DNA from: Pseudofrankia saprophytica
GTDB lineage: Bacteria > Actinomycetota > Actinomycetes > Frankiales > Frankiaceae
Direction of reading: 5' to 3'
Assembly (NCBI RefSeq): GCF_000235425.2
Contig: NZ_KI912267.1
Span: 769,097 to 833,096 of the forward strand
Length of the DNA stretch: 64,000 bases
Both the position numbers and the translations under genes were made by a program. This document shows, piece after piece, positions 52,009 through 55,458 of this stretch (positions are counted from its first letter, which is position 1; each line of letters starts with the position of its first letter). The notes under the pieces were generated by a model. The model ran no database searches and was not told the origin of the DNA. It saw nothing but the letters and a program-made list of their open reading frames with translations.

Positions 52009-52941
52009 ATGACTGACGCGGGCATCGACGCGGCCTCGGGAGCGGGCGGCGGTAGCCCCGCGGGACGTGTGCGCGCCCTGATCCTCTGGGTCGTCGCGCT
52101 GATCGCGCTGGTGATCGCCGTCGGTGGGGCGGTGGGGGCGGGTGGAGCGGTCGGCGACGCGGCCATGGACGCGCTGCCCGGCGTCGCGTTGCTGTTCAGC
52201 GTGGTGCACGGTTCGCTGTGGGTGGGCTGGCGTGGTGTCGGCACGTACTTTCTGATCAGCTATGTCGTGGCGTTCGCCTTGGAGGCGAGCAGCGTCGCGT
52301 CCGGGTTCCCCTTCGGGCACTACGAGCACTTCACCGGCGGGCCGCGCCTTCTCGATATTCCACTCGTGGTGCCGTCGGCCTATTTCGCCTATGGCTGGAT
52401 CGCGTGGGTGCTGGCCTGCGTCATCGTGCGCGGCGACCCACATCGGCCGGCGGGCGCCGAGCGCCTCACCACGCCGCTCGTCGCGACGGTGATCCTCACC
52501 GGCTGGGACTTCACGTTCGACGCGGTGTTCGCCACGGTGAGGTCCCAGTACCGGTACGACGATCCCGGTGGCTACTTCGGAGTGCCCGTCTCGAACTTCC
52601 TCGGGTGGCTCCTCACCGGCTGGATCATCTCCCAGGTCTTCGCGCTCGTCGAACCGAGGGTTTCCGCGGCGGCACCGCCGGCCGGCCGAGCCTGCCGGGT
52701 GCTCCCGAGCGTGGTGTGGGCGCTGCCCGTCCTTCCGCTGCTCGGGTTGTGCCTGTCCCGGCCTCCCGGCGAGGTGACGGTGGGTGGCCGGACCTTCGTG
52801 ATCGCCGACATCTACGGGTCCGCGTTCGTGACGGGCCTGATGACATTGGGATTCACCGCCACCCTGGCCCTGGTCAGAGCGACCGCCACCGCCAGAGCGA
52901 CCGCCACCGTCAGAGCGACCGCCGCGATCAGCCGAAGGTGA
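52009..52941 (+). CDS. Carotenoid biosynthesis protein (CruF/DUF422-like)
   Basis: 310 residues, seven predicted membrane helices. FALEASSVASGFPFGHYEHF and WDFTFDAVFA with GGYFGVPVSNFLGWLLTGW are marks of the CruF/carotenoid 1,2-hydratase-like (PF04240) family. AGGAGAGG precedes ATG 52009 and an AT-rich promoter patch (51963-51980) precedes that. The C-terminus has an RATAT-type repeat encoded by three 18-nt units (52873-52926). It ends 14 nt inside the converging DipZ gene. No other carotenoid gene is near, so the exact step is uncertain. Confidence 0.85.
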   Translation: MTDAGIDAASGAGGGSPAGRVRALILWVVALIALVIAVGGAVGAGGAVGDAAMDALPGVALLFSVVHGSLWVGWRGVGTYFLISYVVAFALEASSVASGFPFGHYEHFTGGPRLLDIPLVVPSAYFAYGWIAWVLACVIVRGDPHRPAGAERLTTPLVATVILTGWDFTFDAVFATVRSQYRYDDPGGYFGVPVSNFLGWLLTGWIISQVFALVEPRVSAAAPPAGRACRVLPSVVWALPVLPLLGLCLSRPPGEVTVGGRTFVIADIYGSAFVTGLMTLGFTATLALVRATATARATATVRATAAISRR

Positions 52942-54661
52942 AGGAGTAGGCGGTCAGGCCCGGCGACAGGGTGACCGTCACGGTGTCATTCCGCGGCGAC
53001 GGGTTCTCGACCAGCGTGTAGATGTTGGGTGCGCCCGAGACCTGGTGGGTGGTTGTCCTCCCGTCCACGGAGGTGGTGATCGTGCCGGTGCCGCCGACGT
53101 CGAGGTAGACGGCGCTGGCGAAGAAGCTCAGCTTGATGCCGGCGTCCTTCTCGGCGGTGATGGATTCCTCGTCGACGGTCCAGGTGCCCGTGAGCGCGAA
53201 CATGTCGTCGGGGACGGCCCCCGGGTAGGTGAAGGTTCTGGAACCTGAGCCCAGTGGATCCTGGACGCCGTTGTTCGCCCGTGCCGTACCGAGGTAGGTC
53301 TCGGGCGTCTGGTGCGGATTGTCGGGTGTGGTGTCGGCGACCTCGGTGCCGGTTGGCAGGGCGACTCCGGGGTGGGCGGCGGTGAGGAGCTGGCGGATCA
53401 GCGACTCGGTGGTGGAGTAATCCCCCTCCCCGATCGCGACGTGCCGCACCTGACCGGTCGCGTCGATGAGGTACTCGGCGGGCCAGGCATTGTTGCCGAA
53501 GTTGTTCCAGGTCGTGTAGTCGTTGTCCAACGCGACCGGATAGGTGATGTGCAGTCTCCTCGCACCGGCGGCCACATTCGCCCCGACCTGCTCGAAGGCG
53601 TACTCCGGGGTGTGTACGCCGATCACCACCAGGCCGTCCTTCTGGTAGTCGGAATACCAGGACTGGACGTGGGAGATCGCACGCTGGCAGTTGATGCAGG
53701 AGTATGCCCAGAAGTCGACCAGAACCACCTTGCCGGCCAGATCGCTCGCGTTCACCGGCGCACCGGCCGGGGTGTTCAGCCATTGCTGGATTCCGGCGAT
53801 CTCCGGTGCCTTGCCGCAGTCCTGCAGGGTCGGCTCCGGACTGCGCGCACAGACCGCCAGCCCCTCGGACTGGCCGGACCCGAGCAGCCCCGAGGCGCCG
53901 GAGCCGCCGAGATCATCGTTCAGGCTGGCCGTGTAGTCGGGGACCGTTCGCTGCAACGCGTCGGTGACGTTGAACGTCAGCGCCACCGCCAGCGCGATCA
54001 TCACCGCGCCGGCGGCGATCCGGATGCCGCGTTCGCGGTCCCGGAAGGCACGGACGCGCTCGGCGACCCCGCGGCCGGCCAGCGCGAACCCGAGCAGCGG
54101 CAACGCGGTCCCGCAGGCGAAGGCCACGGTGAGCGCCACCGTGCGCACCCCGATCATGCCGGTGGCGCCGGCGACGGTGATCGCCGCGAGCACCGGGCCG
54201 GCGCACGGCACGTAGACGGCCCCGAGCGCCAGGCCGAGGGCGAACCCGCCGCGCTCGCCGGTGACCTGGCGTTGACCGATCCGGGAGAACGGCCGTTCGA
54301 GCAGGTGCTGCACGGTCGGGAACATCATGGCGACGCCGAGCAGGATGAGGGCGACGAGCCCGGCCCAGCGCACGATGTCCTTCGGAAGGGGCAGGGCGCT
54401 GAGCACCAGCGTTCCCAGGAGCGTGAAGGCGCTGAAACTGAGAGCGAGCCCGGCGACCACGAAGTAGGGCCGTCGGCTCGCGCGCCGCGCGGCCCTGTCC
54501 GGCTCTTCCGCCGTGGTCTCTTCCGCCGCGGTAACGGGTTGCCCGGGTCGTGTGCCCTGGACGCCGCCGGCGAGGAAGACCACCGGCAGGACGGGCAGGA
54601 CGCAGGGCGAGATGCCGGTGATGATCCCGCCGACGACCCCGATCAGAACGAGCGTGATCAG
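52928..54661 (-). CDS. dipZ: DipZ-like thiol:disulfide protein (CcdA-thioredoxin-CBM-like), CTG start
   Basis: 577 residues if read from CTG 54661. N-terminal CcdA domain with Cys20 in GISPCVLPVLPVVFL and Cys153 in YVPCAGPV, six membrane helices. Then a thioredoxin/TlpA domain with Cys322 and Cys325 in WAYSCINCQRA, and a beta-sandwich C-terminal domain (SVDGRTTTHQVSGAPN). This is the architecture of mycobacterial DipZ, which passes reducing power across the membrane to extracytoplasmic proteins. The codons for the essential ISPC motif lie upstream of the first GTG (54583). In that frame there is no ATG/GTG/TTG back to a TAG at 54728-54730, whereas GGGAGG sits 6 nt before CTG 54661. Confidence 0.85.
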   Translation of the reverse strand: MITLVLIGVVGGIITGISPCVLPVLPVVFLAGGVQGTRPGQPVTAAEETTAEEPDRAARRASRRPYFVVAGLALSFSAFTLLGTLVLSALPLPKDIVRWAGLVALILLGVAMMFPTVQHLLERPFSRIGQRQVTGERGGFALGLALGAVYVPCAGPVLAAITVAGATGMIGVRTVALTVAFACGTALPLLGFALAGRGVAERVRAFRDRERGIRIAAGAVMIALAVALTFNVTDALQRTVPDYTASLNDDLGGSGASGLLGSGQSEGLAVCARSPEPTLQDCGKAPEIAGIQQWLNTPAGAPVNASDLAGKVVLVDFWAYSCINCQRAISHVQSWYSDYQKDGLVVIGVHTPEYAFEQVGANVAAGARRLHITYPVALDNDYTTWNNFGNNAWPAEYLIDATGQVRHVAIGEGDYSTTESLIRQLLTAAHPGVALPTGTEVADTTPDNPHQTPETYLGTARANNGVQDPLGSGSRTFTYPGAVPDDMFALTGTWTVDEESITAEKDAGIKLSFFASAVYLDVGGTGTITTSVDGRTTTHQVSGAPNIYTLVENPSPRNDTVTVTLSPGLTAYSFTFG

Positions 54662-54831
54662 CGCAGACCTCCCACCCGGCAGCCTGCCCGCGAGACCCCG
54701 CGGCGACGTCCTCGCCGCGTCGCGATGCTAGATCCCGACTCTGAGCACGACGTTAAGCCCGCCGCGTCAGGTCCTGGTCTGGGGTGGGCCATCGCCAGGC
54801 GGGCCCGCCTGGTGTTCCACGCCTGGCTCGA

Positions 54832-55458
54832 TCAGCTCGACGCGGCGCCACCGCGGGCGTTGTAGACGATGACGTCGTCGCGGTTGCCATAGTCCGCGAA
54901 GACCTCCAGGGCCTCGTCGCGCAGGATGCCGGAACGCACGGTGATGCCGCGGTCGGCGAACTGCTGGGCCCAGTCGTCGCGCATGGGTCCCTCGTCGAAG
55001 CCGGTGAGCTGCTCGATCTCGTCGCCCTCGCCGGCGATGGTGAGGAGCTGGACGCCGGACCACATGGTGGCGCCGTAGCACATGACGCAGGGACGCCAGT
55101 TGACGACGAGCTCGACCGGGGAGCCGACGGCGCTGAGGTCCCAGAGCCCGAGCCTGGTCTGCGCGAAGGAGAGGGCGACGACCTCGGCGTGCATCGTGGA
55201 CAGGCCGGTGGCCAGGACGAGGTTCACCCCGGCGGCGTAGATCTCGCCGGTGCCGGGGTTGGCGACGACGGCCGCGAACGGGCCGCCGTGGCCTTCCTGG
55301 TGGTTGCGGGCCGCGAGACGGTGCACGAGGTGCATCCGCTCCTCGACGTCGGGGAGCACGCCACCGGTCGCCCGGACCTCCTCGTCGACCCAGGCGGGCA
55401 GGGCGACATCGAGCGCGGTGGCGGCGCGGCTGGTGGGCGACGCGGGGGTGGGGTTCAT
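54832..55458 (-). CDS. Nucleoside/cytidine deaminase-like zinc protein
   Basis: 208 residues. Zinc-binding motifs STMHAEVVALSFAQ (HxE) and WRPCVMCYGATMWSG (PCxxC) are those of the cytidine/deoxycytidylate/guanine deaminase superfamily. AGGAAG precedes ATG 55458 by about 8 nt. Compared with tRNA adenosine deaminase TadA it has a longer N-terminus. It lies 52 nt after the Rieske oxygenase gene, with a 9-nt tandem repeat at the junction; the pair could act on a purine-like ring. Confidence 0.87.
   Translation of the reverse strand: MNPTPASPTSRAATALDVALPAWVDEEVRATGGVLPDVEERMHLVHRLAARNHQEGHGGPFAAVVANPGTGEIYAAGVNLVLATGLSTMHAEVVALSFAQTRLGLWDLSAVGSPVELVVNWRPCVMCYGATMWSGVQLLTIAGEGDEIEQLTGFDEGPMRDDWAQQFADRGITVRSGILRDEALEVFADYGNRDDVIVYNARGGAASS

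Follow-up and report, generated by a model that had tools for sequence, protein, structure and literature searches.

Where does translation of the dipZ gene begin in the window, the whole 64,000-nucleotide stretch of Pseudofrankia saprophytica DNA that was analyzed? A mechanical ORF list enters the gene as 52928..54583, with a GTG start and 551 amino acids. A sequence-only reading had placed the start upstream of it, at a CTG codon preceded by GGGAGG, and had claimed that standard gene callers would truncate the protein. The ORF list does begin at the GTG; standard callers in general may be expected to do the same. When the minus strand was read codon by codon, no ATG, GTG, or TTG was found in the dipZ frame from the TAG at 54730-54728 to the GTG at 54583, just as had been stated. 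The hexamer GGGAGG was located at 54673-54668, leaving the claimed spacer of 6 nucleotides to the CTG at 54661. The motif that had been described as ISPC also lies upstream of the first GTG, the TGC codon of its cysteine (Cys20) being at 54604-54602.

Both strands of an 800-kb part of the genome were counted as a measure of chance: GGAGG precedes 249 of 31,083 CTG triplets (0.8%) at a spacer of 4 to 9 nucleotides, while an exact GGGAGG at a spacer of 6 precedes 7 of the 31,083. As argued below from sequence comparison, dipZ is very probably translated from CTG 54661 to give a DipZ of 577 residues. The features of the locus are collected in Table 1. The second in-frame CTG (54682), which like the ATC after the proposed start had gone unmentioned in the earlier reading, was judged not to be the start on the two grounds given there.

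Table 1. Features of the dipZ locus (coordinates of the window)
Feature	Position	Strand	Evidence or remark
dipZ CDS from the proposed CTG start	52928..54661	-	577 amino acids and stop; Pfam and structure matches
GTG, first canonical in-frame codon (codon 27 of the proposed protein)	54581..54583	-	sequence, ORF list
Cys20 codon TGC of the SPC motif (Ser18-Pro19-Cys20)	54602..54604	-	invariant column; lost if the start is 54583
ATC, rival non-canonical start (codon 2)	54656..54658	-	directly after the CTG
Proposed CTG start codon	54659..54661	-	CTG in 6/6 genus loci; canonical starts in the same column elsewhere
Shine-Dalgarno (SD) site GGGAGGT	54667..54673	-	invariant in 6 genus loci; pairs with the 16S 3′ end
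Second in-frame CTG	54680..54682	-	no GGAGG-type site before it; not in all genus loci
TAGCAT, -10-like element	54725..54730	-	CTANNMT in all six genus loci; leader alignments
In-frame TAG, upstream frame closure	54728..54730	-	sequence

Domain organization of the protein read from the CTG

A Pfam search of the translation from the CTG matched DsbD_TM at residues 5-229 (57.7 bits, profile positions 4-215 of 219), an AhpC-TSA/thioredoxin-like domain at residues 297-407, and Thioredoxin_10 at residues 452-577 (115.8 bits). Residues 262-577 resemble the structures 2hyx (E 6e-98) and 5cyy (E 4e-98) over nearly the whole solved region; both entries are titled 'Protein DipZ', and their species is presumably Mycobacterium tuberculosis. 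Compared with the M. tuberculosis DipZ, the window protein shares this solved region and has DsbD_TM in front of it, whereas the gene differs in that it appears to start at CTG. In an alignment of seven rows, which represent six distinct genes because rows L005 and L013 are one gene, the two membrane cysteines C20 (SPC) and C153 (VPC) and the CxxC of the thioredoxin-like domain (C322-I-N-C325) are invariant. By its sequence, the window gene encodes a DipZ-type protein, with a full-length CcdA/DsbD-type membrane domain carrying the Cys pair, a thioredoxin-like domain carrying the CxxC, and a C-terminal domain. A structure prediction of the full protein, made with the same alignment, had a helix at residues 2-17, but its confidence was too low (pLDDT 40.8) and it was set aside.

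In CcdA proteins, the two membrane cysteines pair with each other, here presumably Cys153 of VPC with Cys20 of SPC. As the earlier reading had pointed out, a start at 54583 deletes a cysteine, which was found to be the invariant Cys20; Cys153 would thus be left without a partner. The DsbD_TM match would then cover profile positions 51-215 and no longer begin at position 4. An annotation from the first canonical codon would therefore drop an alignment-invariant Cys from a conserved redox membrane protein, and the CTG corrects the N-terminus. The gene upstream of dipZ (54832-55458, minus strand) encodes a 208-amino-acid protein of the cytidine/deoxycytidylate deaminase type (Pfam dCMP_cyt_deam_1).

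Conservation of the CTG in the genus Pseudofrankia

Is the CTG kept in related species? Eight genomes of the genus were analyzed, including the own genome and that of Pseudofrankia asymbiotica, whose locus L013 is the same contig as G001. The 5′ end of dipZ was found in six of the eight, and all six read GGGAGGTCTGC[G/A]-CTG-ATCACG, with an invariant ATC codon after the CTG. A wider block, GGGAGGTCTGC[G/A]CTGATCACG, and the block from the leader to the start, GGGAGGTCTGC[G/A]CTGATCACGCT, are likewise present in all six loci. The CTG of G005 (L009) was missed by the script that reads loci by their SPC motif and was taken from the alignments. The window gene and that of G001 have no canonical in-frame start before the conserved N-terminus. 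G002 has a GTG and an ATG upstream, at codons -52 and -36, neither of which is conserved; this ATG was rejected as a start, and the stretch following it does not behave as coding sequence.

An intact dipZ gene remains in four of the six (own, G001, G002, and G006). With dN/dS values of 0.25-0.35 among these genes, the four proteins are judged to be under purifying selection. In G004 (L011 and L008), the matches cover no more than residues 1-35 and, in a different frame, residues 450-577, so that approximately residues 36-449 have been lost. In G005, the match ends at residue 96, and the next 530 bases of the contig in this draft assembly have no match; dipZ is probably disrupted there. A search of the genus genomes gave no dipZ match in G003 and G007. 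Thus, dipZ is not needed throughout the genus.

The position at which conservation begins was assessed by comparing the own locus with the five other genus loci. In gapped alignments, there are 13-18 changes per 71-74 aligned bases before the CTG, without third-position preference, versus 2-3 changes in 61 bases from the CTG, none of them at second positions. The whole six-species alignment has 2-4 indel columns per comparison. In ungapped comparisons scored with log-odds trained on the survey pairs described below, the 26 codons from the CTG gave +33.3 to +34.8, and the 20 codons before it scored +5.3 against G005 and between -8.3 and -2.3 against the other four loci. The ungapped upstream comparison overstates the differences at indels, and the gapped count gives the same outcome. 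Against L030, a locus from another genus of the family, the scores were +17.8 after the CTG and -22.2 before it, with 8, 0, and 8 changes at the first, second, and third codon positions after the start. In the leader of the genus loci, 13 of 13 columns are invariant in 54675-54663, compared with 27 of 60 in 54735-54676. In these alignments, conservation climbs sharply at the CTG, and the SD block also stands out from the rest of the leader.

Probable start codons of orthologs outside the genus

What do other actinobacterial dipZ genes have at this position? Of 345 genomes of the class, 31 had a match at 1e-60, and the best 30 rows were taken as loci. From this class search and two further searches, 28 loci outside the genus were examined, 20 of which could be read by the SPC motif script; the other eight are L129, L130, L132-L135, L137, and L138. 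In each of the 20 readable loci, an ATG or GTG stands no further from the CTG column than two codons upstream or one downstream (-2 to +1). It lies exactly in the column in 15 loci and within two codons of it in five (four at +1 and one at -2). Several of the outside loci have additional canonical codons upstream, and the aligned ATG or GTG codons are probably the true starts. Two of the 20, L136 and L139, have stops within the matched frame.

The orthologs, including L030 and the Kutzneria loci L014 and L015, share the N-terminal SPC segment with the window gene wherever a locus could be read (20 loci), and in the rows aligned the protein is the same overall. The difference lies in the start column: ATG or GTG at or beside it in the 20 readable orthologs, whereas CTG was seen only in the window's genus. 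Kutzneria has ATG in this column and L030 has GTG. L030 reads CGGGAGGCACCA-GTG-ATC where the window reads GGGAGGTCTGCG-CTG-ATC, ATC being codon 2 in L030. This one relative suggests that the ancestor had GTG and that one G-to-C substitution, before the genus diversified, made it CTG. The comparison of start codons among orthologs, which had been proposed as a check, thus came out in favor of the CTG both within the genus, where all six loci with a 5′ end keep the upstream segment and the CTG, and among the outgroups, where canonical codons lie nearby in 20 of 20 readable loci. The finding that had been named as a refutation, orthologs without the upstream segment, did not turn up among these loci. 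The gene offers a natural case for studying CUG use, with CTG in one genus and ATG or GTG at the same column or next to it in the 20 readable outside orthologs.

Initiation signals and the leader

The 3′ tail of the own-genome 16S rRNA, GGATCACCTCCTTTC, can form six Watson-Crick pairs and one G-U pair with GGGAGGT, and the spacer from GGAGG to the CTG is 6 nucleotides. This strong SD would place the 30S subunit, and the initiator tRNA, mismatched to CUG at the first codon position, would then start the protein with Met. Is the initiator tRNA adapted to such use? Its copies found in G000 (the own genome), G001, G002, G006, and G022 have a normal GGG/CCC anticodon stem. A relaxed initiator tRNA was therefore rejected; the codon would be expected to be used by the ordinary initiation pathway, with the mismatch at its first position. 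Two initiator tRNA genes were found in the own genome: L144 (G000:C1 ~2525000) lacks an encoded CCA, and the other has it.

TAGCAT contains the TAG that closes the frame of the window gene, and the CTANNMT element may be the -10 box of the promoter. If so, the leader would be about 55-60 nucleotides long, and any canonical codon further upstream in frame would be off the message. In a consensus fold of the leader, 1 of 41 pairs has a two-sided change, and the single-strand leader RNA has a structure z-score of -1.91; no regulatory structure is claimed. Rfam gave nothing at the gathering level in 54400-55000. A frame of five codons, GTG-GGA-GGT-CTG-C[G/A]C-TGA (54675-54658, minus strand), overlaps the SD in the six genus loci and is absent from L030. 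Two bases of its stop codon also belong to the CTG.

Alternative explanations

The strongest competitor of the CTG as exact start is the adjacent ATC (54658), a near-cognate codon whose use would make the CTG the last untranslated triplet. The ATC is invariant in the six genus loci, an ATG or GTG stands in its column in 4 of the 20 readable outside loci, and its spacer of 9 from GGAGG is found in 3 of 19 agreed starts. Moreover, according to PMC4633059, behind a consensus SD in M. smegmatis ATC is slightly above background (0.2%) and CTG is not enriched (0.03%). Against it, 15 of the 20 readable outside loci, L030 among them, have their ATG or GTG in the CTG column, and L030 uses ATC as its second codon; a start at the ATC is improbable. 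The alignment together with the SD spacing points to the CTG as the exact start, although the spacing by itself decides nothing between the two codons, since a 6-nucleotide spacer is just as frequent among the agreed starts (3 of 19). The shortened protein of the automatic annotation, starting at GTG 54583, has in its favor that this is the first canonical codon in frame. It would leave out Cys20 and shorten the DsbD_TM match by its first 47 positions, the deleted stretch is far better conserved than the sequence before the CTG, and the column is GTC, a non-start, in G002 and G006, all of which makes this start highly improbable. Several points count against the CTG as well: CUG is a poor bacterial start; dipZ is broken or was not found in part of the genus; in G002, G004, and G006, a GTG at codon +4 might be used, although it is 18 nucleotides from the SD; L030 differs after the start at first as well as third positions; and the initiator tRNA has no special relaxation. 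That the CTG is a mistake of sequencing or assembly is extremely unlikely since six assemblies of six species have the same codon; nothing was found in support of such an error.

With the CTG taken as the start, is the gene still of use to the cell? The CTG gene could be decaying, its protein unneeded and its expression negligible. This reading fits the disruption in G004 and probably G005, the failure to find the gene in G003 and G007, and a published CUG efficiency of about 1% of AUG in the source cited below. The four intact genes with their low dN/dS and the invariant SD block in an otherwise variable leader speak against it, and I consider it rather unlikely. Conversely, the CTG might be held as a throttle, in which a very strong SD and a very weak codon would give a low or initiation-factor-responsive output; in a bolder version, the five-codon frame would hand terminating ribosomes to the CTG. 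The four intact genes agree at 182 of their 295 fourfold sites; common descent is thus enough to account for one shared C, which is no proof of selection on the CTG. As for the coupling, the GTG of the five-codon frame has no clear SD, and the frame could be no more than a by-product of conservation of the SD block. The throttle is an unlikely proposal, slightly more so than decay.

Rarity of CTG start codons

CTG is a listed start of translation table 11. PMC11497404 cites CUG as about 0.024% of bacterial start codons, with an output of 0.86% of that of AUG. Given this low efficiency, the CTG start would likely keep DipZ output low. Bacterial genes with rare CUG starts are likewise led by an SD and lack a canonical in-frame start; the window dipZ differs in being one gene whose codon is kept in six species of a genus. 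The literature search, including passages of PMC2897130, gave nothing on the start of this dipZ gene. The CTG is a rare yet known kind of start codon; what it offers is a corrected annotation and a useful test case, and not a new mechanism.

Are there other conserved CTG starts in this genome? I compared 800 kb of the own genome with 800 kb of G002, a region without dipZ. Among 311 gene pairs, 301 had third-position bias; after the removal of 98 shadow ORFs, 203 were tested. Eleven of them scored at least 10 upstream of the first canonical start, and eight of these, which lack third-position-led change, were set aside. By eye, the other three (a300, a615, and a544) seem to be either a leader that is conserved or a frame that is probably antisense. 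One of the eight, a440, was also viewed, and all 11 candidates were judged on two genomes. The sensitivity of the survey is about 46%, as hiding the agreed start flagged 92 of 202 genes. At this sensitivity, no second conserved CTG start like that of dipZ was recognized among the 203 gene pairs (0.8 Mb, two genomes). This suggests that such starts account for at most a few percent of genes, a bound that does not measure the true rate. An 860-codon frame (G000:C1 ~1651171, minus strand, L068) is preceded, directly before its first ATG, by 72 nucleotides that the own genome and G002 share without a difference, which suggests that this leader is constrained; the N-terminus of the encoded protein resembles ClpC.
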